From a virus: a DNA stretch of 22,630 bases. This document shows positions 5,749 through 22,412 of the stretch, in pieces. The translations under genes and the position numbers were made by a program. The notes beneath the pieces are model-generated. The model did no database searches. It was given only the letters and a program-made list of their open reading frames with translations, and was not told where the DNA came from. Position 1 is the first letter of the stretch. Every line of letters starts with the position of its first letter. The stretch covers positions 1 to 22,630 of IMG/VR virus record IMGVR_UViG_3300030107_002159. One strand, given 5' to 3'.

Positions 5749-6720
5749 TTAATCTATGCTTACAACAGCACGACAGATTGCTTCAGGTCTGAGTACCTTA
5801 CGACCAAACACGTGAAGTCCTCTAACTACGTCAGAGAAACTTTCTGTTGATCTAACGACTTCAGTTTTAGCAATATGTGATGCAGTAGCAGTTGATGATA
5901 TGTGACCAGCTAACAAGATATTTTCTGTACTATCAGTTGCTAAACCAGACACGGTTACTTGATCAGTTCCACCAGAAGAATTTAATGCTGTTGATTTATA
6001 GCATGTAAATCCTGCAATGTTACCAAGAGATACTAGACCATTTCTCAATGGTGAAGTTTGATCTCCTGTCACTTGGACTTCAGCAAATTTACCACCTGCT
6101 GAGAATAAGTGTTTGTAAAATAGTGGTGGTGCAACAAACCATCTGTTTTCTTCAGGCACAGATTGATCGTCTAATGCTGTAGCCATTAATAACATAACGT
6201 TTACAGCGTTATCACCCGGAGTACCTGTATTAATATTTAATGCAGTTCCAAGTGTTCCGATGTTTGCAATCTGAGCAGTTGTTGCTCCTGATTCGCCATT
6301 TAATCCAGCATTAGTTGCCATAAGGTCTAAGACGTTAGCATCGTATTTTCTTTTTAGAGAATACGCACCAGATGATGTTGCTAATGCTTCAAAATTGACA
6401 TGAGATTGACGTTCCTCAATGTCATCGATTTTAAACGCAAATGCGTTTGCTTGGTCAACAACCATACTAATTTGATCGTCAGCCAAGTCTTGTGGGTTAA
6501 CTACAGCACCTCTAGTATAAGATGACACTGTAATTGTAGGTTCTTTGATAATATTAACCGTATCGCCAAAATTTTCAATTTCCCCAGCATAGTCTGTATT
6601 AGTAATATCCTCTACAACCGATGCTCTACGAAAAAATTTAAGAACTTTTTGACTGAAAATAGACGGTGTAAAATTACCACTAGGCAGATTCCCATAACCT
6701 GTAGTAGTATCAAAAGCCAT
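5749..6720 (-). CDS. Major capsid protein (HK97-fold, presumed)
   Basis: 323 aa, translated from ATG at 6720 behind AAGGGAG. Begins MAFDTTTGYGNLPSGNFTPS; then SQKVLKFFRRASVVEDITNTD, FGDTVNIIKEPTITVSSYTRG and DQANAFAFKIDDIEERQS. This N-arm, E-loop-like region and a 'WFVAPPLFYKHLFSAGGKF' P-domain-like helix-strand resemble coat proteins of T7/P22-type marine phages, and length is near T7 gp10 (about 345 aa). It lies directly after the scaffold gene and before the decoration gene, the standard order. The C-terminal region FGRKVLRPEAICRAVVSID ends in a typical strand. It should be the most expressed gene here. Assignment from order plus family look. Confidence 0.88.
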   Translation of the reverse strand: MAFDTTTGYGNLPSGNFTPSIFSQKVLKFFRRASVVEDITNTDYAGEIENFGDTVNIIKEPTITVSSYTRGAVVNPQDLADDQISMVVDQANAFAFKIDDIEERQSHVNFEALATSSGAYSLKRKYDANVLDLMATNAGLNGESGATTAQIANIGTLGTALNINTGTPGDNAVNVMLLMATALDDQSVPEENRWFVAPPLFYKHLFSAGGKFAEVQVTGDQTSPLRNGLVSLGNIAGFTCYKSTALNSSGGTDQVTVSGLATDSTENILLAGHISSTATASHIAKTEVVRSTESFSDVVRGLHVFGRKVLRPEAICRAVVSID

Positions 6721-6751: not shown

Positions 6752-7606
6752 TTATGAAGAGAAATCTATTCTTCCTTCTGAACGAGCTTTATCAATTTCT
6801 TTTTCAAGCTTTTCAAAATCCCAAGGTTTCATTTTACCTATTTCAGAAGCTTTCCATACTTTTTTATTTTGTTGAGATGTGGAAACTTCTTTTGCCCCCT
6901 TGGATGACACTGATATTGCAGCGTCTGGAACTTTAACAGATTTCTTTGAGCCATTATCTGCATAATATAAGTCAACAATTCGTGAAGCCCATTTTGCATT
7001 AGAATTATTTTTAAGAATGCCGTCAGATATTGATTCAGGTTGCGTATCAAGCCACTTTAAAAACTTTTCATCTTCTTTTAAAGTATTAAAATCAGGTTGA
7101 AGTCTTAAAAGTTCTTCATAGGCTTTTTCTTTTTCAAGTTCTTTTTCTCTACCTTTTAAAGCGTCAAGCTCTTGTTTTAATGATGCTAGTTGTGCTTCAG
7201 CTTTATTTGTTGCTATTTCTTCAACAGCATTATGTACATCAGGATACTTGTCTTTAAAGGCATTTAAGTTATCTTGAGGTTGTTGAACCGATTCAACTTT
7301 TTGTTTCCACTCTTCCTGTTTTTGGTCGTAGTGACGTTTCAAATCATCGTATCGTTTCTTGTAATCAACATCTTTTGTTTCTTTTTTTTGTGCAAAACTT
7401 TCTGATAATTCTTTATCCTGAGTAGCTTCTTTATTGGAAGGGTCAGCATTATCGTCAGAAACAGCTTGTTCAATGTTTTCTTTATTATCCTCTTCATCTT
7501 CTTTGTAAACGTCATCTCTATATTTATTTCTATATAGACTTGTATTGTTTACAGTTCCAAATGAATCGTTGGGTTTGTTGGCTCTCGCCCCCTTTTGTTT
7601 TGCCAT
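6752..7606 (-). CDS. Head scaffolding protein
   Basis: 284 aa from ATG 7606, chosen because GAGGAG lies 6 nt upstream; the frame stays open 22 codons further to an ATG at 7672 that has no ribosome binding site. Very charged and almost wholly helical: an acidic stretch (EDEEDNKENIEQ), long coiled-coil from about residue 75 to 175 (KKRYDDLKRHYDQKQEEWKQK; LKQELDALKGREKELEKEK) and a C-terminal basic helical segment (WDFEKLEKEIDKARSEGR). This is the usual make-up of phage scaffolds, which fill the procapsid and are expelled on packaging; a helical C-terminus commonly binds the coat protein. Directly upstream of the capsid gene. No protease domain. Confidence 0.82.
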   Translation of the reverse strand: MAKQKGARANKPNDSFGTVNNTSLYRNKYRDDVYKEDEEDNKENIEQAVSDDNADPSNKEATQDKELSESFAQKKETKDVDYKKRYDDLKRHYDQKQEEWKQKVESVQQPQDNLNAFKDKYPDVHNAVEEIATNKAEAQLASLKQELDALKGREKELEKEKAYEELLRLQPDFNTLKEDEKFLKWLDTQPESISDGILKNNSNAKWASRIVDLYYADNGSKKSVKVPDAAISVSSKGAKEVSTSQQNKKVWKASEIGKMKPWDFEKLEKEIDKARSEGRIDFSS

Positions 7607-7690
7607 TTTTTTCTCCTCATTAGGTCGCAGGGCCATTGGCATGGGTAACTGCTCGGTTGTGTAGGGCTGCATTATTGCAGGTAGCTACGT
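7607..7690 (-). promoter_or_regulatory. Structured leader of the scaffold gene, or 22-codon extension
   Basis: This 84-nt interval is markedly richer in G+C than its surroundings and contains a 5-bp hairpin with a 4-nt loop (7667-7680, CTGCA/TGCAG) within a larger GTAG...CTAC pairing, ending in the GAGGAG of the scaffold gene. It is also an open frame (from ATG 7672, MQPYTTEQLPMPMALRP) in phase with the scaffold. Its codon choice (CCC, CTG, GAG, CAG) is unlike neighbouring genes. It is either a mRNA leader that sets scaffold dosage or an N-terminal extension. Confidence 0.35.
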
Positions 7691-9298
7691 TTACTTAGTT
7701 CTTCGTTCTACTTCAGCTATACCTTTTTTGTTAATTGTTTCAAGGTTTGCCAAACCTATGAACGGAACTAATTCGCTTGGAATACGGACTTCAGATTCTG
7801 ATGCTAACACTTTCACAAGTTCACTTCTTGGAATATCTACAGGAATATCAACTATTTCTACTCCTGCGGCAGACGCATCTCTTAGTCCTCTCGTTATCAT
7901 ATTTACCACGTTTCTAATACCGTGTTTTTCAACAGATGGTGAATTTAACATATAGTCATCTTCTTTCATATTTAATGGCACATCATCTGCAATAGAATCT
8001 TTTTCTGTAACTTGATTAGGTGTTTTACCCCCTATAAATCCTACTTCATTTAAATTTATTTGACCACCTTCATTTAACTTTTGTGCAAAATTTTCTACTA
8101 AACCATCATCCATTGTTTCATTTTGGGATAATCTATTTGTTTTTAATATTGAAGCAAGTTGATTTACAGAAACTGTAGGAGAATCTTTAACCTCTCCTCC
8201 CTTATTCAATAAGCTATAATCCCCTGCTTTAATACGATCATCCATTGTATCTTTTTTATTATTGTTATCATCTTCATTTTCAGGAACATCCGTAATTATT
8301 GCAATATCATCAGAAGCTGTTAATTCTTCTATTGCTGAAGTTACGGTTACATTTTTGTCAGCACGAGCTTTTTCCATAGCTTGTGTTAAAACTGTAATGC
8401 TTACTCCCATATCATCAGCTAGTGTTTTAGTTAAAGATCCCCCATAAAGTTTAGACTTTGAATACCCAAACCCATTGTTTGCTACGAAAGTATAATAACC
8501 ATCATCTGTTACAGATCCCCCTGTTCCACCACTATTTAAAGCATCACCAGTGTCTTCATTTTCGCCATCAAGCCTAAACCCTCGTGGATCAAATCCTTTT
8601 GAAATAGCGTCCATTGCTTTTAACATTGCATGTGCATTACCATCTTCAGAAGATAAATGAGATTTAAGACCATCATAATACATTTGGTTAGGAGCACGTG
8701 AAAAATGATTATTACCAATAGTCATTGCAAAACCCATATCCTTATTTCTATCAATAGATTTTGGTAAATTCGATTGACCAATAGTTTGAATTGCAGCTTG
8801 TCTAGCCTGTTGCACTGCTGTAAAATTAGCAAAATGTTTTTGGAGTGCTCGTTCACTAATTCCTCCTACAGAAAATACATTTTTACCTGTAGGACCTTTT
8901 AATTGTGTTCCAAAACCAAAATCCCCACCCCCAAAAAGTATACCTGCAGGACCTAATAGTGCCGATGCAGCTCCTTGCGACATCATATTTCTTGTATTAA
9001 AAGGCGAATTTGATTTATCTACTAAACCTGCAGTGGTTAACATATTCTCATATGATGGAAATTTTTCAGAATAGAGATTATCAAATATTGAAATATCTTT
9101 GCTAGATTTTCCTGTAACAAATTGTTTTATAATTGGGTTTGTATAAAGATCATCTTGGCTATCTGACGTTGCTTTAGAAGACACATCTATCCCTGTAGTT
9201 TCTAAAACTTTATTTGGATTTATTAGATCAGAACTAGGTGAAATAAAACTTTCACCACCCATTTCTCCAAAATCAATATCTTGATATTCATCAACCAT
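7691..9298 (-). CDS. Large unknown protein between portal and scaffold, 535 aa
   Basis: No enzyme motif found. N-terminal 90 residues are acidic and Ser-rich; residues about 105-130 form a Gly/Ala/Leu hydrophobic patch (ASALLGPAGILFGGGDFGFG). A helical region follows (SERALQKHFANFTAVQQARQAA), then acidic low-complexity DDNNNKKDTMDD. The C-terminal part has DSIADDVPLNMKEDDYMLNS and IPSELVPFIGLANL, a variant of the 'D.V.(A)x(L)xxGEFV(M/I)' segment I know from large marine-phage structural or internal proteins. Such genes lie in the head cassette, so a virion-internal or ejection protein is likely. ATG 9298 follows AAGGAA. A capsid protease is an alternative by position, but no catalytic triad is evident. 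Confidence 0.7.
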   Translation of the reverse strand: MVDEYQDIDFGEMGGESFISPSSDLINPNKVLETTGIDVSSKATSDSQDDLYTNPIIKQFVTGKSSKDISIFDNLYSEKFPSYENMLTTAGLVDKSNSPFNTRNMMSQGAASALLGPAGILFGGGDFGFGTQLKGPTGKNVFSVGGISERALQKHFANFTAVQQARQAAIQTIGQSNLPKSIDRNKDMGFAMTIGNNHFSRAPNQMYYDGLKSHLSSEDGNAHAMLKAMDAISKGFDPRGFRLDGENEDTGDALNSGGTGGSVTDDGYYTFVANNGFGYSKSKLYGGSLTKTLADDMGVSITVLTQAMEKARADKNVTVTSAIEELTASDDIAIITDVPENEDDNNNKKDTMDDRIKAGDYSLLNKGGEVKDSPTVSVNQLASILKTNRLSQNETMDDGLVENFAQKLNEGGQINLNEVGFIGGKTPNQVTEKDSIADDVPLNMKEDDYMLNSPSVEKHGIRNVVNMITRGLRDASAAGVEIVDIPVDIPRSELVKVLASESEVRIPSELVPFIGLANLETINKKGIAEVERRTK

Positions 9299-9318: not shown

Positions 9319-11412
9319 TTATGTTTCAATTTCAGGAGTGTTGCCAGTAAAGCCAGCTTCCCCTGCAGTTGGCGTAGCTCCGACTCCGATTGAGCTACCG
9401 TCATTCCCTGCACCACTAGCTCCCTCAGTTCCATTAGGTACTCCTCCAGATTGCTCCATATTTGGTGGTTGTTGATTAGGGGGGCTATCAGTTTGGCTTG
9501 CTTGTTGTTGAGCATTTTGTAATCCTTGTAACATTTGAGCATAGATTTTAGCTTCAGAAAGATCATTAACTAACTCATCAGGATCAATGTCTTGTGCTAT
9601 AGCTAACTCTTTCATTAAATTTGGTAACTTGATAAAAGGTGCTAACATAGGGTTTGAAACTGTTTGTAACAAAGCCGTTAACCTTTGACTGCGTATTTCT
9701 TTTTGCATAACACCAATAGAACCATTTGGTTTAATTTCAAGATCACCTTCAACCTCTGGAGTATCTTTATTAAATTGCATATTCCATTGAAAATAACACT
9801 CACCAATTGGTTTTAATAAATAATCATCTATATTTTTTATAACTGTTTTTACCGATAATGATGCACCACCTAACAACATTGAGAGTCCTGCAGCAGTTCT
9901 ACCTGTGCCACTTACTCCTGTTTGTCCATGCATAATAGATGGCAACCCTGTTTCTTCATCAGCAAGTTGCCTACTTATTTGGTACATCTGTAAGTTCTCG
10001 CCTGCTGTATTTGGAAACTTCAACCCATTGATTGCTGTTCCAGTTACCCCAGATTGTCTTCTAAATATCTTTCCGGGAAATATATCCATGTTTTGACCGG
10101 GGACTAGACTTGCTTCATCAACATCAAATACAAGATTACCTGCTAATGCCAAGTTATCAATAGCCATTCTTACATGCCCATTCATTAACAACTGAGCATC
10201 TTCCATATTTTCAGCAACTCCTACACCCCATAATTGATATGGATTTACTTCATATGGGAATGCATTATATGGAACTCTGGCAGGTGTAAATGGATTTAAA
10301 ACGCATCGTAGTACGTTTGCTCCTGATACCCATGCGTTAATTTGAACTTGCTCAAATTGACTCATGTCTGAACTTATATTAAGACCTACTTCTCGTGCAA
10401 ATTTAGCATCAAGAACTCCCCAATACTCTAATACTTCAAACCTGTTTTCGTAAGTGTTTGGCTGAGTTTCATCATCACGGATTGTATCTTCGTAATATTT
10501 ATCTTCGTAGTTAGGACCTTTTGCTATTAAATCTTCAATTTGTTCTGCATCAAAGTATGGTTTATTAATTAAGGCTCTTAATTGTTGTCGTGTCATTCTG
10601 TGACGTTGAATAACATATTCACAATCCTCTATAGAAGTGGCTGATGGATCTGGATGGAAATCCCAACATGAAACATACTCAAGACGTGGAACTAATCTTT
10701 CATAAGGATCATACGTTTTTGCCCCATCTTCTGTAGTTGCCCATTTGTGAACACGTTTATAATGATTAAACGGACCTTTTATAACTCCAGTTCCCAACAA
10801 AGATGATTCAAAAATAGCATTTCTAAAAACTGTAACTGCATTTGTATCAAGCAACTGATCATGGATCAACTTTTCCATTTCCCTTGCAGCTTCTTTAGCA
10901 GGACTAACTTGAGGTTCTCCTACATTGGACGGACCTTCTTCTAATGGAAGATTTTTATACTTTGCTCCTAATTTATTTGGGTCAGATACTCCTGCAGGGA
11001 TTTCTCTACCATCCCCTTCAAATCCATACGGATCAGTTATATCATCAATAGGAGTTTTAGTATGTGCAAATTCTACAATACCTTCAGGCACAGGAGTTGG
11101 GTCTACAGTAATTGGAAATTTTTTATTGTTAAAAAGTATATCAACAATTTGCCCATAGGCTGCAAGAACTTTTGTTTTTGTTATTTTTATAAAAACTTGT
11201 GATCTTTCAGAATCTCGATACGTAGTCGTACTGTCATAAATTCCTCTAAAGTTTTTATACGCTTGCAACCACTTTTGCTCATGCACACGTCTACCATTTT
11301 CAGAATCTTCAAACTTAGATTTGACATATCCTGCCAAGCCCGGCATTTGTTGTTCTGGGTCTTGTACTTGAACTGACTCGTCATCAGGTGGTTGCAGAAA
11401 GTTTTCTTCCAT
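9319..11412 (-). CDS. Portal protein (head-tail connector, P22-size)
   Basis: 697 aa, close to P22 gp1 (725 aa). The N-terminal third has a helical KWLQAYKNFRGIYDS segment and SQVFIKITKTKVLAAYGQIVD, then a loop-rich insert. The middle carries SLLGTGVIKGPFNHYKR, RLEYVSCWDFHPDPSATSIEDC and YVIQRHRMTRQQLRALI, typical of the wing and clip of large portals. A region around MHGQTGVSGTGRTAAGLSMLL and IKNIDDYLLKPIGECYFQWN corresponds to the stem/tunnel helices. The C-terminus is Gln/Pro/Gly-rich and likely disordered. Forms the dodecameric ring through which DNA is packed. Lies after the terminases and before the scaffold and capsid genes, as expected. Weak ribosome binding site. Confidence 0.92.
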   Translation of the reverse strand: MEENFLQPPDDESVQVQDPEQQMPGLAGYVKSKFEDSENGRRVHEQKWLQAYKNFRGIYDSTTTYRDSERSQVFIKITKTKVLAAYGQIVDILFNNKKFPITVDPTPVPEGIVEFAHTKTPIDDITDPYGFEGDGREIPAGVSDPNKLGAKYKNLPLEEGPSNVGEPQVSPAKEAAREMEKLIHDQLLDTNAVTVFRNAIFESSLLGTGVIKGPFNHYKRVHKWATTEDGAKTYDPYERLVPRLEYVSCWDFHPDPSATSIEDCEYVIQRHRMTRQQLRALINKPYFDAEQIEDLIAKGPNYEDKYYEDTIRDDETQPNTYENRFEVLEYWGVLDAKFAREVGLNISSDMSQFEQVQINAWVSGANVLRCVLNPFTPARVPYNAFPYEVNPYQLWGVGVAENMEDAQLLMNGHVRMAIDNLALAGNLVFDVDEASLVPGQNMDIFPGKIFRRQSGVTGTAINGLKFPNTAGENLQMYQISRQLADEETGLPSIMHGQTGVSGTGRTAAGLSMLLGGASLSVKTVIKNIDDYLLKPIGECYFQWNMQFNKDTPEVEGDLEIKPNGSIGVMQKEIRSQRLTALLQTVSNPMLAPFIKLPNLMKELAIAQDIDPDELVNDLSEAKIYAQMLQGLQNAQQQASQTDSPPNQQPPNMEQSGGVPNGTEGASGAGNDGSSIGVGATPTAGEAGFTGNTPEIET

Positions 11413-11417
11413 AATTT

Positions 11418-11636
11418 TTAATAATCTTTTTGATCAGCCATTGCAAAAAGTGAAGCTTCAACTGTTGCTTTAGTTTGCTTCTTTGGTGCATCCTGTGTTA
11501 GAACATCCTGTGAAGCTCTTGTATCAAATTGTAAAGCTTCTCTGTTCAATTGATTTGAACCCATCGGATCATTTACAGATGTTTTGTCTGAGTTCATAAT
11601 GTAGTTTGCACCGTAATTATAATTACTTCCCGGCAT
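11418..11636 (-). CDS. Small hypothetical protein, 72 aa
   Basis: ATG 11636 preceded by AGGGAG at 6 nt, so it is well translated. Sequence is Asn/Ser/Asp/Gln-rich and probably unstructured (MPGSNYNYGANYIMNSDKTS) with a more helical C-terminus (TKATVEASLFAMADQKDY). No motif recognised. It sits between the recombinase-like fusion gene (10 nt away) and the portal gene (5 nt away), so it belongs to the head operon. A small head or assembly protein is possible; no function assigned. Confidence 0.65.
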   Translation of the reverse strand: MPGSNYNYGANYIMNSDKTSVNDPMGSNQLNREALQFDTRASQDVLTQDAPKKQTKATVEASLFAMADQKDY

Positions 11637-11646
11637 AATTTTCTCC

Positions 11647-13254
11647 CTAATTTAATGATGGCATTTTAGGTGTAAATTTTTCTAAAAAGCCTGTTTTAAG
11701 TTTACTTGCTGCTTCTGCAACAGGTTTAGTTAATGGATCTACAACTTCTCTTTGTGCAAATCCTGCAACATCTTTTACTGCTTTTACATCCCCAACGGAT
11801 ATTGGGGCAAATTCAGTTGATGCTATTACTGCTGATTCTACTGGATCAAATCCTTCAGCTCTACTTTCTTGGTACATTAATGCTGCTCCAACTGGTGGAA
11901 GTACAAATTGTGCAGTTTTTAATGTTCCTTTCAAAATTGTTTTTATATGGGGTGGTAAGTCATCAAATTTGCTAATACGTTTTTTTGAATCATCGTCTTT
12001 TGTTTCTTCTGTAACTGTTTGTGCATATGTTACTTCAGGAGCTTCGACAAGCGTTTTTATTTCATATGGTTTATCAGCAGGCATTACTTTAAATTTTTCA
12101 GTTCCTATAGCTATTTTAATTAAATCAGCATTTGGATCTAACACAACATTGGGGGGCAGTTTGCCACCTGTAGCAGCTTGTTTTTGGAGCAAATTAAAAT
12201 AATAATTATCTAATCTATTTGGAATTTTAGTAGCTTCTGGTTCAAAGAATCCCGGTTCAGGAGATATATAATCTATCTCTTGAGTTTTTCCTGCTATACT
12301 GCCTTTTGCTGTACGAGCTTCATCAGAGCTTATTCTTAAATTATAAGCTGCTGTAGCATGAAGTCTTCTAAAATCATAAGAGGTAATTGTATCATATTTA
12401 GCAGGACTTGTCCGTCCTTCAAGCAAACGTACATCTTCTATTATTCCGGGAACTTTTATATTTTTTAAAAAATTTGTTAAAACTTTGTCATCTATACCTT
12501 TAAATAAGGGTGTGTTTGCTGTTATATTAATACCTTGGGATTTTAAATCAGCCAGTTGTTGTTGTACTATTGCATAACTTCGTGGTCCTAAAACCACATT
12601 TGCAACATCTCCTGTTTTAACATTTCTTTGAACAATGCCCGGAGCTGCACTTTCTTCGATAAACTGTATATCACCTGCCCTTAATCCTAATATTTCATTT
12701 GGTCGCATACCAGTGTTCATAAGAAGTAAAGCACCCCTAGCTTTTGAAGCATTCTCAGGGTTGCTGTTACGGGTCTTTGCAACATATTTCATCAATTCTA
12801 TTTGAAATTGCCCCATCAATCGAGGTTTTACAATTTGTTTTTTGGACTTTGATTTAGGTTTGTCAGGAGTAATTCTTGCTGCAACTATGTCAACTGCGGC
12901 TACCTCCCCTTTTGATGCTAAATTTTGACTATAGTTATCTTGAAGAACTTGAAACTTTGATTTAACAGGAAGAATTACATTAGAGAATTTTTCTCCAGTT
13001 CCAACTCTTTCTACTTCGTTATCATAAAATATTGCATAAGGATTATTATTTGGATTTTTTGATGTTTCAAAAAGTACAGACATTGGTCTGTCTAAAAATT
13101 GTTGTAAAGGTTTTACTTTTAAAAAATCGTTAATATATTTATCAGGATTTTTAAGTTTCGCATTTTCTTTTGCGTATATTTTTATAAAATCTCTTAACGT
13201 AGTTACATCTACATTAAAATTTGGATTTTTAACTAGATAACTTGAGCCTGCCAT
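11647..13254 (-). CDS. Tyrosine-recombinase-like domain fused to a large C-terminal region, 535 aa
   Basis: Residues about 145-335 look like the catalytic domain of a tyrosine recombinase. ARGALLLMNTGMRPNEILGL gives box I with R184 and E187. NVKTGD gives the beta-hairpin lysine K213. SYDFRRLHAT gives box II with R296, where the usual His of HxxR is Y293. AGKTQEIDYIS gives a candidate nucleophile Y329, 33 residues after R296, as in Xer proteins. The usual second His is not seen (K323 or S319 nearby). An N-terminal helical region (1-140) could be the core-binding domain. Residues about 340-535 have no counterpart in integrases: an acidic-basic linker (TKDDDSKKR), then Ala/Val-rich helices (KTAQFVLPPVGAALMY). 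The gene stands between large terminase and portal. Whether it recombines DNA, or is a repurposed structural protein, cannot be told. Confidence 0.75.
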   Translation of the reverse strand: MAGSSYLVKNPNFNVDVTTLRDFIKIYAKENAKLKNPDKYINDFLKVKPLQQFLDRPMSVLFETSKNPNNNPYAIFYDNEVERVGTGEKFSNVILPVKSKFQVLQDNYSQNLASKGEVAAVDIVAARITPDKPKSKSKKQIVKPRLMGQFQIELMKYVAKTRNSNPENASKARGALLLMNTGMRPNEILGLRAGDIQFIEESAAPGIVQRNVKTGDVANVVLGPRSYAIVQQQLADLKSQGINITANTPLFKGIDDKVLTNFLKNIKVPGIIEDVRLLEGRTSPAKYDTITSYDFRRLHATAAYNLRISSDEARTAKGSIAGKTQEIDYISPEPGFFEPEATKIPNRLDNYYFNLLQKQAATGGKLPPNVVLDPNADLIKIAIGTEKFKVMPADKPYEIKTLVEAPEVTYAQTVTEETKDDDSKKRISKFDDLPPHIKTILKGTLKTAQFVLPPVGAALMYQESRAEGFDPVESAVIASTEFAPISVGDVKAVKDVAGFAQREVVDPLTKPVAEAASKLKTGFLEKFTPKMPSLN

Positions 13255-13256
13255 AA

Positions 13257-14942
13257 TTAGTATCCAAAGGTATTATCTTGAGGTTGATATGTTTGTTCTT
13301 TAATATGTTGCAAACTTTTATGTATAGATACATGAGGACTCATTCTTGTCATTACCATATAACGCAACGCATCATATGCGTGATCTTCTGCTTTTGTATC
13401 TACATCTTCAGAGTTTGACTTTGATAACGGTATTCCAGCAAGTTGCCGAACAGTGTTGTTACATGTATTAAATATACGGATTCTTGGAAGTTTTGTCAAT
13501 GGGTTATCTGCTAATCGTCTATGTATTTCCATCTTGCCCATAAGTCTGTTCCTATCAGAGGGAGTCCAACGAACTCCTGATCGCATCATAGACTCAGCTA
13601 TGGACGGACCAAAGCCTGTTCTGTTCCAACACGATGAGTCTAATACGGTGTAATGTGGTGTTGGTTCTTGTTGTTCCATTTCCAATATTCTGTCGGCAAG
13701 TTGTTCGGCTGTGTGTTGTTTTACATACAACTCTTTGTACACCCAGATATTATTATCCCAATCTATTGCCCCCCACAATACACACGATGGACTTGCATAT
13801 CCATAGTCTGCAGCACGTATTCTGGGCCAGTTGGTTGGCATTTCAAATGGTGCAACAACGTGTTTCTGCTTTGTAAATTCAGGGAATGCTGCTCCCTCTG
13901 CAACATCCCAATCCCCATCGAGAAGTCTTTTCCTTTCCACTTCTGGGAGGGATCTAAGCATGGCTTCGTATCGTCCATCTTGCATTAGATAGGGGTTATC
14001 AGTCAACCGTGCTGGAATAAACTTTCGGTAGAACAACGGCTGCCTAGCTTTCTCGTGACCCTCTGGATATAATAACTCTTGTCGTGTTTCTATATCCGTA
14101 GCTGGAAATGCTATGTTAGGTTCACTTGTATCTACATACATTTTTTTAATCCACCACCCACCGACTCCACCGGGGTTGCCTGTGCAACGCATTGACATAA
14201 ATGGTTGCAATTCTGGATCTGTTGTACGTAACCTTGAACGCAAATAATCCCACACATACGGTGTTGGATATTGCGTTATCTCATCTATCCCTATCCAATT
14301 AAACGCTTGACCTTGAAAACGTGTAACATCTTTATCACGGTCAAGATATGTAAACCACATCGTTGCCCCAGAAGGGAACACCCACGTGGATTTTGATTCT
14401 CTAAAATGTGCATTAGGAAATGCTTTTGGGTATAACTGTTTTGATTTGTCGATAAGTTCTGTTAGTTCATCTAAAGTACGTCTAAGGAGTAGACCACGAT
14501 GGTTACTATTATGACAGTACCTAAGAGGATCAACAAGCAACGCAAAACTTTTTCCTCCCCCTGCAGCCCCACCATAGAGCACATCTTCTTCAGAAGCTGA
14601 TAAGAACTCTTCTTGAGGTCCGTTATTAGGTTGGAAAATAACTTCTTGATCTTCAACAAGTTCTTTGACAGGTTCGGATGCAATATTAAGGTCAGCCCTA
14701 TCGATAACTCGTGAAGATACTCCTGCAAGCCCTGTTTGTAATTTTTTAGCACTTGTTTCAATTTTTTTAGCATGATGTTTATGTTGTTCTGCCTTCGCTG
14801 ATGCTTTCTTTGCTTTTTTACGTTGATCTCGTATTCTTTTTTGTGTAGCTCTCCGTGCTAACTCTAGTTTTGATAAGTGGTAGTTAGCTTTAGGAGCATT
14901 TGGGTCTTTCTTAGGTCTACCCCTTGTGGATTTATTCGTCAA
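13257..14942 (-). CDS. terL: Terminase large subunit (packaging ATPase/nuclease), TTG start
   Basis: 561 aa. ATPase: Walker A GGAAGGGKS (124-132), Walker B IGIDE (217-221), and a CTGNP coupling segment near 253-257. Nuclease: D379 (RAADYGYASPS), D435 (VLDSSCW) and D524 (EDHAYDALRYM), the three RNase H-type acids. The motor pumps DNA through the portal and cuts it. An unusual basic N-terminus of about 90 residues starts RGRPKKDPNAPKANYHLS, combining an AT-hook-like RGRPKK with a KKDPNAPK string, then Lys/Ala/Arg-rich helix; it may bind DNA. The start is a TTG at 14942, since an in-frame TAA lies two codons upstream and no ATG or GTG follows before the conserved region. It overlaps the upstream stop by 11 nt. 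Confidence 0.96.
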   Translation of the reverse strand: MTNKSTRGRPKKDPNAPKANYHLSKLELARRATQKRIRDQRKKAKKASAKAEQHKHHAKKIETSAKKLQTGLAGVSSRVIDRADLNIASEPVKELVEDQEVIFQPNNGPQEEFLSASEEDVLYGGAAGGGKSFALLVDPLRYCHNSNHRGLLLRRTLDELTELIDKSKQLYPKAFPNAHFRESKSTWVFPSGATMWFTYLDRDKDVTRFQGQAFNWIGIDEITQYPTPYVWDYLRSRLRTTDPELQPFMSMRCTGNPGGVGGWWIKKMYVDTSEPNIAFPATDIETRQELLYPEGHEKARQPLFYRKFIPARLTDNPYLMQDGRYEAMLRSLPEVERKRLLDGDWDVAEGAAFPEFTKQKHVVAPFEMPTNWPRIRAADYGYASPSCVLWGAIDWDNNIWVYKELYVKQHTAEQLADRILEMEQQEPTPHYTVLDSSCWNRTGFGPSIAESMMRSGVRWTPSDRNRLMGKMEIHRRLADNPLTKLPRIRIFNTCNNTVRQLAGIPLSKSNSEDVDTKAEDHAYDALRYMVMTRMSPHVSIHKSLQHIKEQTYQPQDNTFGY

Positions 14943-16107
14943 CTTTTAATTCTTTCATTTGACTGTCTAATGATTTTACTGTTCCCCCCTCTTTAAAAGG
15001 CAATGCATCTAATGCTTTCTGCCACCAAGACGGTTTTTTTGAAATTTCTTTTTCATTAGTATTGGCTGGTGTTTCAAGTAAGTCTAAAACTTTTTTTGCC
15101 GTATTGTTTAACTTCTCATTATTGTCACGTAACATTTTTAAGTAATCCGAATCCGAGGGATAAAATCCAAATTTGCCCCTAATATTTTTAGTGGGATCAG
15201 TTTTAAATTCCCTTGGGTCAAACTCTCGTAACGGATTTTTAACTTCATCATACGGAAGATCAGGGTCTTTTTTATAATCTCCTATATCTGATCCAATAGG
15301 GTTAATTGTTGTTCTTATTTGCTCGTTGTAAGTTGGATTTTTCAGCCTAGCCAAAGTTTGTTCAGATCTCATCGCATTTAAAAGTTTAAAATTGTCAAAT
15401 TTTATATATGATGGGACCATAGTATCATAAGTATGCATGTCAACTAAATTTTCCGTAAATATCAAAGCATCGGAATCTGAACGACCCAAACCTAGTCGAG
15501 CTATAATATTTGTTGTTTCATTAGGAAACTGTTCTCTTTGATACCCCCCTGTAATTTCAACAGGAGCACCTTCTTCTTTTAAACGCATATTAAGTTCTGT
15601 AGTTTTTGGATCTACTCCTGAAGGTACAACCGTAATGTATTTTGGGTCTTGTTTTGGAGATAATTCTTCAATCGGAGAAGTTCCTTCGCTTAACATTTTA
15701 TTTAACACATTATGTCCAGCGTGTGTAAGTTCATGTACAAAGGTACTGTCTTCATCAATAGCATTAAGAATAAAACGTTTTTGAATATCGGATATTTCAT
15801 CATTATCTTCTATGGCTTGTTTTACTACAATGCTACCAGAATAGCTGTCGGTTGGAGATAAATAAAAACCCTCTAAAGACCTTTCATTTAATTCTTCTAT
15901 TTCATCAGTTATACTCAAATCAAGTTGAAAATTTGCTCCCCCCTCATACTCAGAACCTAAAGCTTTTTTAAAAACATCACTATCTTTAATTGCATAAAAT
16001 CCTAGTTTTGCAACAGCATTATTTTCAAAAAGAGGTTGTAAAGCTTCCTCTAACTCTTTAAAAAAATTTTCATCGTCCTTTCCACTTCTAAATGTAAGTC
16101 TAGCCAA
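14932..16107 (-). CDS. Putative zinc metallopeptidase-like protein (HELTH), TTG start, 391 aa
   Basis: The key motif is STFVHELTHAGHNVLNKML: H125-E126-x-x-H129, a zincin signature in a predicted helix, with H132 a possible extra ligand. The HExxH is preceded by a long helical stretch (about 95-122), as in many zincins. I see no clear metzincin (HExxHxxGxxH) or later gluzincin Glu, so the family is unassigned. The C-terminal 80 residues are charged and end in KEGGTVKSLDSQMKELKVDE. No signal peptide, so it acts in the cell or virion. The start is TTG at 16107 with AAGGGG 7 nt upstream; no ATG or GTG exists before it in frame. It overlaps small terminase by 8 nt and large terminase by 11 nt. A head-maturation protease is one idea. 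Confidence 0.7.
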   Translation of the reverse strand: MARLTFRSGKDDENFFKELEEALQPLFENNAVAKLGFYAIKDSDVFKKALGSEYEGGANFQLDLSITDEIEELNERSLEGFYLSPTDSYSGSIVVKQAIEDNDEISDIQKRFILNAIDEDSTFVHELTHAGHNVLNKMLSEGTSPIEELSPKQDPKYITVVPSGVDPKTTELNMRLKEEGAPVEITGGYQREQFPNETTNIIARLGLGRSDSDALIFTENLVDMHTYDTMVPSYIKFDNFKLLNAMRSEQTLARLKNPTYNEQIRTTINPIGSDIGDYKKDPDLPYDEVKNPLREFDPREFKTDPTKNIRGKFGFYPSDSDYLKMLRDNNEKLNNTAKKVLDLLETPANTNEKEISKKPSWWQKALDALPFKEGGTVKSLDSQMKELKVDE

Positions 16108-16498
16108 TCTCCATCCCCTTTTTTGCTGGCAACAGCACTACACCGTGCAATGCTTGTACATTATGGTTGTGTGTTTCTTCTTTACCCAAACCTACCCTGT
16201 TTAACAACGATTCTGCCGCCTTTAATCGTAGATCATCTCCTCTTACGACTTCAGGAGTGTCAATCATCTGTATTAATTTGTTTGTTGCTTTTACGGATGC
16301 TGTTGCTAAAAGGTTTTTTGACCGTTTTAGTATTTCATCAGCGAGTTTATTTTTCAACCACGTGACTGATCCTTGTGGATATCCTGCATCAACTGCTGCG
16401 GCAGACACCGATCCCCCATTTTTAAATAGGTTTTGAAGGAATAGTTCTTCTTTTTCGGTAATTTTAACCGATTTATGTTTTTGTGGCAATAAATTCAT
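16100..16498 (-). CDS. terS: Terminase small subunit
   Basis: 132 aa, first gene of the packaging operon. Residues 14-52 (TEKEELFLQNLFKNGGSVSA, AAVDAGYPQGSVTWLKNKL) make a helix-turn-helix of the kind in small terminases, which bind the packaging site and load the large subunit. The following helices (KNLLATASVKATNKLIQMID; LRLKAAESLLNRVGLGKEE) match the oligomerisation region and the 'AAESLLNRVGLGK' element often seen there. ATG at 16498 has no good Shine-Dalgarno; the 5' leader has an 8-bp inverted repeat whose second arm lies just upstream of the start. Length (about 130-160 aa) and place before the large subunit support the call. Confidence 0.88.
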   Translation of the reverse strand: MNLLPQKHKSVKITEKEELFLQNLFKNGGSVSAAAVDAGYPQGSVTWLKNKLADEILKRSKNLLATASVKATNKLIQMIDTPEVVRGDDLRLKAAESLLNRVGLGKEETHNHNVQALHGVVLLPAKKGMEIG

Positions 16499-16597
16499 AG
16501 CATTTTGTTAGTAATGGTGCGAAAGTCCATCAAAAAGTTCGTATTGTAAGGTAATAAGTTGTATCTTTGTGACATTTTGCAACGCATTACTATATAT

Positions 16598-16625
16598 ATA
16601 ATATAGTTTATAAAAAAATTGTCAA
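16598..16625 (-). promoter_or_regulatory. Sigma-70-type promoter for packaging/head operon
   Basis: On the minus strand TTGACA (16625-16620) is followed after 16 bp by TATTAT (16603-16598), in an AT-rich run that also offers TATATA variants. Transcription would begin near 16590 and read into the small terminase gene with a leader of about 90 nt. It is the first convincing promoter upstream of the late genes. Confidence 0.65.
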
Positions 16626-16641
16626 TAAGTTATTTTATGGG

Positions 16642-16670
16642 TTGACAAAAGTGAATCTGAACTGTACAAT
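16642..16670 (+). promoter_or_regulatory. Divergent promoter for a short rightward transcript
   Basis: TTGACA (16642-16647), exactly 17 bp, then TACAAT (16665-16670), preceded by TG one base pair away. This is close to the sigma-70 consensus at ideal spacing. Its -35 is 16 bp from the -35 of the leftward promoter, so the two face away from each other. No protein gene lies downstream on this strand; a terminator ends transcription about 58 nt later. Confidence 0.7.
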
Positions 16671-16676
16671 GCAGTT

Positions 16677-16734
16677 GAACCTGCCGAGGTAATATATACA
16701 GTAAGCCCCAATGTCCTGCATTAGGGGCTTTTTT
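16677..16734 (+). ncRNA. Candidate phage small RNA, about 58 nt
   Basis: Defined by a near-consensus promoter at 16642-16670 and a strong intrinsic terminator at 16703-16734 on the same strand. The predicted RNA has a 25-nt single-stranded 5' part containing CCUGCCGAGG and an AU-rich stretch, and then the terminator hairpin, the minimal layout of a bacterial regulatory RNA (seed region plus hairpin plus U tail). It is the only plus-strand transcript I can support in the window. It is not a tRNA or a recognised Rfam-type RNA to my eye. Expression is unproven. Confidence 0.5.
16703..16734 (+). terminator. Strong intrinsic terminator of the short rightward RNA
   Basis: AAGCCCC (16703-16709) pairs with GGGGCTT (16724-16730), extended by AATG/CATT across one bulged A, around a 5-nt TCCTG loop, and followed by TTTT (six T including the stem end). 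On the opposite strand the hairpin is not followed by T, so it acts rightward only. Confidence 0.85.
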
Positions 16735-16876
16735 AGTGCCCAGCCGGGTCTACCTATAGAGTTGCACGACTTAATCATACAAGAAACTATAAAAAATAAA
16801 AATGACCGATAGATTGCATGTACATGTATGGGGGGTGGGGTGACCCTTCACGTGCACACGCACGATATATTTTTAG
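16735..16876. other. Non-coding control region with GC-rich palindromic patch
   Basis: No supported gene. A compositional island at 16815-16864 holds a perfect 10-bp palindrome CATGTACATG (16817-16826), an 11-nt G-rich run GGGGGGTGGGG (16830-16840), and overlapping CACGTG and GTGCAC palindromes at 16849-16857. Its base content differs sharply from flanking AT-rich DNA. It could hold a protein binding site, replication origin or packaging/attachment site; nothing decides between them. Confidence 0.35.
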
Positions 16877-16981
16877 TTATTTTATTTTTGCCTTCATACC
16901 TTTCATTGAAAGGTTTTTAACCACCACAAATGCAACAAGCAAAACCAACCCACCAATTAATAGTATATGCATCTCACACAT
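16877..16981 (-). CDS. Possible 34-aa single-helix membrane peptide
   Basis: ATG at 16981 (alternative ATG in frame at 16972) to TAA at 16877. The product is a short hydrophilic start, then ILLIGGLVLLVAFVVV as one membrane helix, then a basic tail KNLSMKGMKAKIK. The helix-plus-basic-tail layout obeys the positive-inside rule and is unlikely from random AT-rich DNA. No good Shine-Dalgarno is seen. A weak promoter (TTGTCA at 17076-17071, 17 bp, TATTTT at 17053-17048) could serve it. Function unknown. Confidence 0.4.
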   Translation of the reverse strand: MCEMHILLIGGLVLLVAFVVVKNLSMKGMKAKIK

Positions 16982-17122
16982 GCTCGTATAATAAACTTTG
17001 CCAATTAATTATATGAATTACTTTTAAGGCATCTTTAAAGGTCAATAAAAATAGAAGTATTTAATGCCATTGACAAAAATATATAATACTTACAACGCTT
17101 AAACTATTTATTAAGTAGACAT
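16982..17122. other. AT-rich intergenic stretch
   Basis: No gene seen on either strand. It holds TATAAT-like hexamers and a weak leftward promoter candidate (17048-17076), all low in information because the stretch is strongly AT-rich. Confidence 0.4.
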
Positions 17123-17155
17123 AAAAAAAGCCCCAAGAGGTTTAATTCTTGGGGC
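17123..17155 (-). terminator. Strong intrinsic terminator closing the early leftward units
   Basis: On the minus strand GCCCCAAGA (17155-17147) pairs perfectly with TCTTGGGGC (17138-17130) around an 8-nt loop and is followed by seven T. It lies 33 nt past the stop of the zinc-ribbon-like gene at 17189 and separates the early block from the late promoter region. Confidence 0.9.
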
Positions 17156-17188
17156 AGTTAGGAGGAAAAATATATAATACAATTAATA

Positions 17189-17971: not shown

Positions 17972-18064
17972 TTAAGTAGACCAAACAGCCATTAAAAATA
18001 AAACAGTTAAAATTATTAACGCAACAATAATTTTATAGATATATAATAATGTTTTCCAATTCAT
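17972..18064 (-). CDS. 30-aa single-helix membrane peptide coupled to DUF932 gene
   Basis: ATG at 18064 overlaps the TAA of the DUF932 gene as TAATG, the same junction used throughout this genome, and the frame closes at 17972, just before the terminator. The product is MNWKTLLYIYK followed by a clean membrane helix IIVALIILTVLFLMAVW and a two-residue end. It has the form of a small phage membrane peptide acting on a host membrane protein or as a toxin-like inhibitor, but that is only inference. The unit's terminator lies directly after it, so this gene is inside the transcript. Confidence 0.6.
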   Translation of the reverse strand: MNWKTLLYIYKIIVALIILTVLFLMAVWST

Positions 18065-19089
18065 TACGCAATTACCTTATCTTGGTGTTCTAATGTCTGC
18101 CATTCTTCCGAATTGAGCAAATTGCGTACCATGTTTTGTCTATTAAGTTTTACAGAATGTTGTGATTTAGAAACCCCACTAACTTGATCTTTTCCATCAA
18201 CGTCAACGTAATTTTCTTGTGTATGTGTTGACCAATGTGTCAAGGCATTGTAACCACCCCAAAGGTTAGCACCACAATCTTTAATTTCATTCTGATATAC
18301 TTGTGTAAGGTAATTTAGTTGTTTTTGGTTTACTCTGTATTTTTCTTCTTTAAGTAAACGAACCCCATCACCATTTTTTACTTTGCACAATGTGTTAGAT
18401 AAAAACTTAACAAATTTTTCTTCAGTCAATGGAATGTTTTTCCAAGCTAACATCTGAGCTTTATTTTCATTCCAAGACTGTAAAGATGTCTGAGCTTTTG
18501 AGAGCATCTGATCAACTTCTAATCCTCTCGTATGTTTATGGTTTTGTTGATAAGCTTTCTCTCCACCAAACACCTGAGTGTTACGACATAGTGAACGATA
18601 TGCACCAGAAAAAACTTGGAATGACCATGATTGATCGATAGAATTAAAAACATCTAAACGACACGTTACTTCGTCCTGCTTTGTTCCCACCTGCATTTTT
18701 AAATCTTCAAAATGTATAGAACGTGATGCACGTCTCCCACCTTCATAAATATGGTCAATAACTTTTACATTATTGTGAGGAAGATCGGAATTATCAATTA
18801 TCATATCACCTTGTTTTTTAAATAACTCAGTATGTTGCACAAGTTTATAAGTATTACTAACTGGTCGACAGTGCAAAAGCTTATCAGTTTTTGTATTAAG
18901 TAACCCATAATAATTTTGAAGATGTTGAGAGCTTACAACCCCATCTTTATCTTCATTAAAGTATTGTAATGGAACTTTCTGGACATCTCCTAGATGTTCA
19001 AACAATCCAATATCATTTATATTATTATGAATGTACTCAATACCATTTGGTATTTGGTTAATGTTTAAATCTAAAGTATCTAACGGCAT
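18064..19089 (-). CDS. DUF932 / TIGR03299-type phage-plasmid protein, 341 aa
   Basis: Characteristic segments are SYNTYKLVQHTELFKK-like PVSNTYKLVQHTELF (about 76-90), EVTCRLDVFNSIDQSWSFQV (about 140-159), FSGAYRSLCRNTQVFGG (about 160-176) and a late ANLWGGYNALTHWSTH. The family (DUF932, 'phage/plasmid-like protein') occurs on phages, plasmids and conjugative elements; molecular function is not established, though links to DNA metabolism or defence and anti-defence have been proposed. Length is within the usual 280-400 aa. ATG 19089 follows AAGGAGGAG, the strongest ribosome binding site in the window, so abundant synthesis is expected. Coupled to the gene before (TAATG) and the tiny membrane gene after. 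Confidence 0.85.
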   Translation of the reverse strand: MPLDTLDLNINQIPNGIEYIHNNINDIGLFEHLGDVQKVPLQYFNEDKDGVVSSQHLQNYYGLLNTKTDKLLHCRPVSNTYKLVQHTELFKKQGDMIIDNSDLPHNNVKVIDHIYEGGRRASRSIHFEDLKMQVGTKQDEVTCRLDVFNSIDQSWSFQVFSGAYRSLCRNTQVFGGEKAYQQNHKHTRGLEVDQMLSKAQTSLQSWNENKAQMLAWKNIPLTEEKFVKFLSNTLCKVKNGDGVRLLKEEKYRVNQKQLNYLTQVYQNEIKDCGANLWGGYNALTHWSTHTQENYVDVDGKDQVSGVSKSQHSVKLNRQNMVRNLLNSEEWQTLEHQDKVIA

Positions 19090-21120: not shown

Positions 21121-21292
21121 TACGTTTACCTCTCACTATTATGGGTGTTGAAAGTCTAAGTTCTAAGTCTGCAAGTTTATCAGCAAGTTCTTTAGCGAAA
21201 CCCTTTGACATTGTTCTTTGACCATTTGATACGTCATACAATTCAAACATAACTTCTTGTAACATAGTTATGTTATTAGTTTCATAACTCAT
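21107..21292 (-). CDS. Hypothetical helical protein, 61 aa
   Basis: ATG 21292 overlaps the methyltransferase 3' end by 11 nt and its own end overlaps the next gene by 14 nt. Mostly helical: ITMLQEVMFELYDVSNGQRT, then KGFAKELADKLADLELRLS and a strand PIIVRGKRNAKT. No family recognised. It lies between a DNA methyltransferase and a ribbon-helix-helix regulator, so an early accessory role is likely. Confidence 0.6.
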   Translation of the reverse strand: MSYETNNITMLQEVMFELYDVSNGQRTMSKGFAKELADKLADLELRLSTPIIVRGKRNAKT

Positions 21293-22412
21293 TTTTCAAC
21301 CCCTTAAATATTTCTGTGACTACATCTACACACCAACCATTGCCCAACATTTTATAACGTTGTGTTTTAGACACTTCCTTAATAAAATAATCATCTTTTG
21401 TTCTGTCAGATATTTTAGTATCTTCAAAATCTCCAAACATAGTATAGTCATCAGCTAATGTCTGTAGACGTTCACATTCTTTTGGTGTCAGTGATCTCCA
21501 ATACTTATCTGTAACTACAAGGTTATCTTTTTGTACAGTTGTCAAAGCACCACTTTTACCATCACCTTTCAACTCAATACGTTGCTCGGTTTTGATGTTA
21601 GGGTTGTAGTCATCTCTCTTGTTTGTTTTAGGATTGATCTTGCGACCAACCATCTGTCCACACACGACTTTGGGTTCTCTATGTCCACCTTGCATAGTTG
21701 TTAGTGTTGGGGATTTTCCCTCTCGTGAGTATACACGCTTAATTATATCATACCCTTTGATATCAGCTACACCCACTTGTATGCAACTATGGTCATCAAA
21801 CACAAGTTGTCTTCTGTGTTTTTTAAAGTATGTTTTAAGATTACCACCTTTAAAATAGTTAGCATCTATACAGAACGATTTATCTCTATCTACATAGCCA
21901 TCTTCAACAATGTCTTTAAGATAAATGTTTTTATCTGTAGGCATATCGAATGGGATATTTGTCCAATACCATCTATCTCTTTTTTGTGCCGACACAAGAC
22001 TTGACGGAATCATAATGGGTTGCACTCCAAGAGTATTAGAAATTATATCTTGATACTCTTTTTTCATTCGGACATTTTCCAACAAGAAATATTTGGGTTT
22101 AATAATGTCTAAATGTTCTGCCCACTTGAAGAACAGATTGGAACGTTCTCCCTCGATCAAGCCTTTACCTTTCCCACTAAAAGATACATCTTGACAAGGT
22201 GATCCACCTATCATCAAATCAATATCTTTTATACTATGAGGGTTGACTTTATTGATGTCTCCTATCTGTATAGTATTAGGAAAATTATATTGCGTTACAG
22301 CGATAGGATATTTGTCAACTTCTGACGCTAGATATGTAGTTGGATAAATGCCATTTCTTTTTAATGCCACTTGTCCACACGACATACCATCAAATGCACT
22401 ATATACTCTCAT
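21282..22412 (-). CDS. DNA (cytosine-5-)-methyltransferase
   Basis: 376 aa. Motif I YSAFDGMSCGQVAL (SAM binding, 4-17), motif IV GGSPCQD with catalytic C73, motif VI LENVR with E112, motif VIII QKRDRWYW (143-150) and motif X MLGNGWCVDVV near the end. Transfers a methyl group from S-adenosylmethionine to carbon 5 of a cytosine in a target site. The target-recognition region between motifs VIII and IX has two related 'LTT.Q' segments, SPTLTTMQGGHREP and GALTTVQKDN. No restriction nuclease accompanies it, so it is an orphan enzyme probably guarding phage DNA from host cleavage. ATG 22412 follows AGGG. The FDGMSCG start is of the DNMT3-like group commonly seen in phages. Confidence 0.95.
   Translation of the reverse strand: MRVYSAFDGMSCGQVALKRNGIYPTTYLASEVDKYPIAVTQYNFPNTIQIGDINKVNPHSIKDIDLMIGGSPCQDVSFSGKGKGLIEGERSNLFFKWAEHLDIIKPKYFLLENVRMKKEYQDIISNTLGVQPIMIPSSLVSAQKRDRWYWTNIPFDMPTDKNIYLKDIVEDGYVDRDKSFCIDANYFKGGNLKTYFKKHRRQLVFDDHSCIQVGVADIKGYDIIKRVYSREGKSPTLTTMQGGHREPKVVCGQMVGRKINPKTNKRDDYNPNIKTEQRIELKGDGKSGALTTVQKDNLVVTDKYWRSLTPKECERLQTLADDYTMFGDFEDTKISDRTKDDYFIKEVSKTQRYKMLGNGWCVDVVTEIFKGLKNEL

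Follow-up and report, generated by a model that had tools for sequence, protein, structure and literature searches.

The gene that directly follows the large terminase gene in the window, by which we mean the whole 22,630-nucleotide stretch analyzed (IMG/VR virus record IMGVR_UViG_3300030107_002159, positions 1 to 22,630), encodes a 535-amino-acid protein whose fold and active site, according to our analyses, support its membership in the tyrosine recombinases (YRs). The kind of enzyme is a known one; its genomic setting is unusual and its cores are modular. Our leading, if tentative, explanation is a late, packaging-coupled, and catalytically competent YR that is probably the phage's own integrase or circularizing enzyme and possibly virion-associated. 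A point against the integrase or circularizing part of this explanation is the location: integrases are normally early or lysogeny genes and would not be expected in a late operon.

A recombinase gene in the packaging operon

The open reading frame (ORF) occupies positions 11647..13254 on the minus strand, exactly where the first-pass annotation, which gave no strand, had placed it between the large terminase and the portal. Its ATG lies 2 nt past the stop codon of terL (13257..14942, minus strand; PHROG_979, E = 1e-62, and Terminase_6N), and it is followed by a conserved small ORF of 72 amino acids with the motif NYNYG (11418..11636, minus strand), a small ORF being found after the YR gene in 51 of 56 complete relatives, and by the portal gene (9319..11412, minus strand; SU10_portal 2e-27, PHROG_332 2e-82). 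In order of transcription, the operon comprises the probable terS (16100–16498), a 391-amino-acid protein (14932–16107, minus strand), terL, the YR gene, the 72-amino-acid ORF, the portal, a 535-amino-acid ORF (7691–9298, minus strand), a scaffold-like protein (6752–7672), and the major capsid protein (5749–6720). The TerL and portal proteins are nearest to those of HMO-2011-type phages of Pelagibacter, Roseobacter, and SAR116 at ~50% identity, and we therefore take the window to be a fragment of a phage that is related to these but distinct from them.

The integrase profile PHROG_216 matches residues 129–305 of the window protein with an E value of 6e-10, and PHROG_1 matches the protein with an E value of 1.6e-7. 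The Pfam Phage_integrase profile (PF00589), suggested as a check in the first-pass annotation, gives a match as well (E = 2.4e-4), although its 21.3 bits fall under the curated cut-off of 27.1; 13 of the 23 family members are matched at E ≤ 0.01 (best 5.8e-9), and one relative, L004 (G009), passes the cut-off. In the AlphaFold model, pLDDT is mostly 85–97 for residues 10–320 and confidence is reasonable to around residue 400; residues 410–535 are mostly below 50 except for short helices. Comparison of the model of residues 1–400 with known structures using Foldseek bore out the suspected relationship with tyrosine recombinases, giving XerH (E = 2.2e-4, probability 1.00) followed by Tn1549 integrase, Cre, and archaeal Xer, and a fold search of BFVD matched phage integrases. 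While XerH, Tn1549 integrase, and Cre share the fold of this part, they are 11–16% identical to the window YR and have neither such a tail nor a linkage to terminase. Whole-chain TM scores were modest (0.3–0.5), which is not surprising given the two domains and the long, uncertain tail, and the YR assignment is for that reason based jointly on the E value, the consistency across the family, and the conserved residues. From the model and the PHROG_216 match, the recombinase core, consisting of an N-terminal helical core-binding-like part and the catalytic domain, covers approximately residues 1–345 (12220..13254, minus strand).

The recombinase-like residues R184, K213, R296, and Y329 had been picked out from the window sequence alone, and they are conserved in an alignment of 23 relatives (A1) with a mean column identity of 23%. 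The five invariant columns are M1, R184 (box I Arg; codon 12703..12705), F251, R296 (box II Arg; 12367..12369), and Y329 (the presumed nucleophile; 12268..12270), and K213 (β-hairpin Lys; 12616..12618), conserved in at least 90% of sequences (21/23), is one of eight nearly invariant columns, all codons being on the minus strand. The four residues fall within the 13 best-conserved columns of 535, for which the naive chance is ~2e-7. Neither of the outcomes named in the first-pass annotation as refuting its reading, a missing fold match or a lack of conserved Arg and Tyr, was observed. The protein is of the same domain family as the phage tyrosine integrases (PF00589, PHROG_1, PHROG_216), including the canonical integrases of HMO-2011, CRP-1, and CRP-3, and in a profile alignment R184, K213, and R296 pair with the Arg, Lys, and Arg of the canonical enzymes. 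The two departures from the canonical active site that the annotation pointed out are also real. The box II His (HxxR) is replaced by Tyr (Y293) in the window protein and by Y, S, A, T, K, E, P, and others in its relatives, and the box III His/Trp is replaced by Ser (AKGS, residues 318–319). The window protein shares this Ser with L004 and L007, the rest of their cluster having mostly Arg (GR or SR). As this trio has neither the box II His nor a box III His/Arg, the window copy could be impaired, and the sequences of all three possibly reflect an altered or impaired active site. However, the box II His is likewise missing from the canonical integrases of the HMO-2011 group (LMDLRR/LRDLRR), and its absence alone does not exclude activity. 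The conservation of R, K, R, and Y together with the purifying selection on the core (see below) argues for catalysis.

Conservation of the slot and comparison with canonical integrases

A peptide-pattern search of IMG/VR with the window protein found nothing, the family being too divergent, and relatives were reached via TerL instead. Similarly, tblastn with the window protein and four other YR types gave no match among 50,697 phage records. The TerL search of IMG/VR yielded 80 loci with TerL at least 74% identical, representing a clade of uncultured, mostly marine phages. In all 74 loci whose contig continues past terL, a single long YR-type ORF comes next, 519–759 amino acids in length where complete and, in 73 of them, with its ATG from −1 to +5 nt from the terL stop. 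The order terS-(x)-terL-YR-72aa-portal-ORF-scaffold-capsid is found in five near-complete genomes and the window. BLAST clustering of slot ORFs of at least 340 amino acids gave six clusters of 30, 10, 9, 9, 7, and 4 members, which were aligned separately (A1 and A4–A8). Across the six alignments, both Arg and the Tyr are found in 59/59 sequences and the Lys in 57/59, in recombinase order. Box III has His (GH) in 27/27 sequences of clusters A4, A5, A6, and A8 and Arg in 9/9 of A7, and the box II His is absent in all six clusters. Outside the window's own cluster, matches to PHROG_1, PHROG_216, and PF00589 are weak or none. Profile comparison connects A1 with A7 (94%, E = 1e-7) and both A6 and A8 with A5 (98% each); the connection of A1 with A4 is weak (E = 2.5e-3), yet their catalytic residues align. 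The model for A6 (7 sequences) is poor (pLDDT 61) and has no structure match, and its assignment is consequently based on the comparison with A5 and the conserved R, K, R, H, and Y; it is the least certain of the YR clusters.

These patterns bear on the possibility that an inactive YR fold has been retained as a structural, DNA-binding component of the virion or the motor. Such a role would agree with the location in a packaging operon, with the lack of the box II His everywhere, and with the lack of a box III His/Arg in the window trio. A DNA-binding relic should nevertheless lose its Tyr and Arg, whereas R, K, R, and Tyr are invariant or nearly so over six clusters at very low overall identity, and four of the clusters have the box III His. 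We regard an inactive fold as very unlikely. The related suggestion of the first-pass annotation, a domesticated DNA-binding domain and nothing else, is disfavored because purifying selection acts on the core and R-K-R-Y has survived even where the sequences have diverged extremely.

In the five near-complete records (47–57 kb), PF00589 and PHROG_1 matched only the slot gene and no other YR was detectable; in G003 neither profile matched, and the slot ORF belongs to cluster A4 and has the full set of catalytic residues. The distribution is different in the HMO-2011-type phages. A canonical integrase is encoded away from terL in HMO-2011, CRP-1, CRP-3, and ctYwJ313 (E values from 1e-32 to 1e-38), and in the first three terL abuts the portal with no YR beside it. 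PF00589 matched nothing in HTVC115P, HTVC033P, and HTVC103P, and the YR domain profile was unmatched in 37 loci of HTVC115P-type phages; small ORFs occupy the slot in both sets. Some HMO-2011-type subgroups have been described as carrying an integrase upstream of the replication genes and others as being without lysogeny genes (PMC9038755, PMC6918029), and CRP-3 is reported to integrate at tRNA-Met (PMC6918029); we came across no account of a terL-adjacent recombinase in the literature on these phages. In comparison with the canonical HMO-2011-type integrases, which lie upstream of replication genes, the window YR lies beside terL and has a long C-terminal tail, and its cluster has Arg or Ser instead of His in box III. 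The similarity between A1 and these integrases is remote (profile comparison, E = 1e-3), the same catalytic residues being aligned.

The slot gene could be seen as an ordinary integrase that was moved into the late operon by recombination and acts after reinfection, with an incidental tail and the protein staying outside the particle. That it encodes the only detectable YR in near-complete genomes, and that phages with a canonical integrase have no YR in the slot, would suit this explanation. On the other hand, late coexpression with terL in every member gives the protein no obvious route to incoming DNA, and an incidental tail does not explain why tails are kept while cores are replaced. Neither a prophage nor an attachment site was found: a TerL scan of GTDB genomes gave no prophage of the clade, the one contig detected representing a lineage without YR, and the proven-temperate relatives also gave none; no tRNA was found near the YR gene, and no attachment or recombinase site for the YR was identified. 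These negative results count against integration in the reading that we favor as well. We consider an ordinary, relocated integrase improbable. No HTH_3 or HTH_17 lysogeny regulators or ParA were found, and as none was convincing in the proven-temperate CRP-3 either, their absence is uninformative.

Upstream of terS, the window has ~690 nt without a clear gene (16499–17188). This noncoding block is ~70% identical over 260–640 nt in relatives with different YR types and is therefore not a YR-specific attachment site; it is more likely a candidate packaging or regulatory region.

Exchange of cores and retention of tails

The C-terminal tail (approximately residues 346–535; 11650..12219, minus strand), ending in ..GFLEKFTPKMPSLN, is fast-evolving, and among the relatives tails are common to different cores. 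An extra region fused to the YR domain had been recognized in the first-pass annotation but described as rich in Ala and Val, which it is not notably: residues 336–535 contain 11% K, 10.5% A, 9% P, and 8.5% V. Within clusters, dN/dS is 0.05–0.24 for the core, 0.25–0.7 for the tail, and 0.05–0.10 for terL; YR cores are under purifying selection and tails less so. The pattern [SGNTD]F[LMIV] occurs in the last 40 residues of 41 of the 56 complete proteins in comparison with at most 12 in shuffles, a result that serves as a lead only since the pattern was picked after viewing the tails and the proteins are related. A membrane segment was considered for the tail and rejected, as a hydropathy of 1.6 was reached by only 1 of 60 tails.

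The clearest case of core exchange is the pair L064 and L078, in which the TerL proteins are 96% identical and the YR cores, ~20% identical, belong to different clusters. Their DNA is 94% identical through terL and approximately the first 420 nt of the YR gene, and 88% identical from the last nucleotides of the YR gene onward. Both proteins of this pair have an extra N-terminal segment, the first 167 amino acids, that is 85% identical and joined to cores from different clusters. Unrelated cores with largely shared tails were found in four further pairs, L027/L037 (TerL 96% identical), L010/L012 (93%), L012/L018 (95%), and L002/L013 (92%). The retention of tails while cores are replaced suggests that the tail has a job, and the exchange of whole cores suggests that the recognized target differs between close relatives, a pattern that fits target-site switching. 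A host target explains such exchange more easily than a fixed internal packaging step. At the same time, the presence of the gene throughout the clade and its coupling to terL point to a role in, or timed with, packaging, and cores that are swapped with the active site and the neighboring genes kept suggest an active role tied to particle assembly.

Drawing on these patterns, the integrase or circularizing explanation that we tentatively favor would work as follows. The YR would be made late, by translational coupling to the large terminase, and its N-terminal unit of ~345 amino acids, with the core-binding and catalytic parts, would bind a DNA site as a multimer. Y329 would cleave the DNA, with R184, K213, and R296 activating the phosphate, and the strands would then be rejoined. 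The C-terminal tail would serve as an adaptor, probably tethering the enzyme to the machinery of packaging or of the head. The target would most likely be a specific site whose identity differs between phages, and for this reason exchange would affect the core as a cassette and leave the tail, terL, and the small ORF in place. The result would be an integrase or circularizing recombinase that is encoded beside the packaging motor and may travel with the particle. In a more specific form, the YR translated with the terminase would be anchored in the particle through its tail and delivered together with the genome at injection, allowing integration or circularization without new protein synthesis and a change of target by a swap of the core alone; we think this form of virion-delivered recombination rather unlikely.

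The main rival, ranked next after the integrase or circularizing reading and in our judgment possible rather than probable, draws on an analogy with VLF-1 of baculoviruses. The YR would then be incorporated into the particle during assembly and act in packaging or genome processing, resolving replication products that are branched or multimeric or trimming genome ends to allow unit genomes to be packaged; the tail would bind terminase, portal, or head, and integration would not occur. VLF-1 is an integrase-family component of the virion that binds cruciform DNA and is required for nucleocapsids to form (PMC6669607), and in bracoviruses both excision and packaging of DNA depend on a relative of VLF-1 (PMC3649998); VLF-1 thus shows that proteins of the integrase family can become virion components on which nucleocapsid formation depends. 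The obligate position of the YR, its translational coupling with terL, and its presence in every relative examined, as opposed to the patchy integrases of HMO-2011-type phages (PMC9038755), speak for such a role. Nevertheless, phages of the HMO-2011, CRP, and HTVC115P types have the same packaging genes and manage without the YR, and an enzyme acting on a fixed internal substrate would not readily account for the wholesale exchange of cores, unless its cognate site is part of the cassette. The VLF-1 proteins of baculoviruses and nudiviruses, both insect viruses, resemble the window YR in possible role only, as judged from genomic position, and the nudivirus VLF-1 was an insignificant match (E = 0.62) in the fold search with the window protein.

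The protelomerases TelN and TelK are large phage proteins with a YR fold and C-terminal extensions. None was among the structure matches listed for the window protein, and a protelomerase was rejected as a candidate, there being no long near-perfect palindrome in the window, which is a genome fragment only.

Implications and other variable genes of the operon

The HMO-2011 literature that we found reports only an integrase upstream of the replication genes, and a terL-coupled YR with an exchangeable core and a shared tail is absent from it. Several subgroups are called lytic in this literature since no integrase was identified. Should the slot YRs integrate DNA, divergent recombinases may be overlooked in such assignments; should their role lie in packaging, VLF-1 would have an equivalent among tailed phages. 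In both cases, the clade offers a natural collection of recombinases whose cores differ while their genomic context is the same.

The gap between terS and terL is a second variable slot in the clade. In the window it holds the 391-amino-acid protein, which has a HELTH zinc-metalloprotease-like motif and the C terminus KEGGTV..LDSQMKEL and, among the loci fetched via TerL, a relative in L004 only. The proteins in the slot after the portal vary greatly in length and sequence between relatives, those of the window and of the near-complete genomes being 535 to 845 amino acids long. The window also has, in the block of genes upstream of the packaging operon, minus-strand genes for a DUF932 protein and a C5 cytosine DNA methylase (18064–19089 and 21282–22412).
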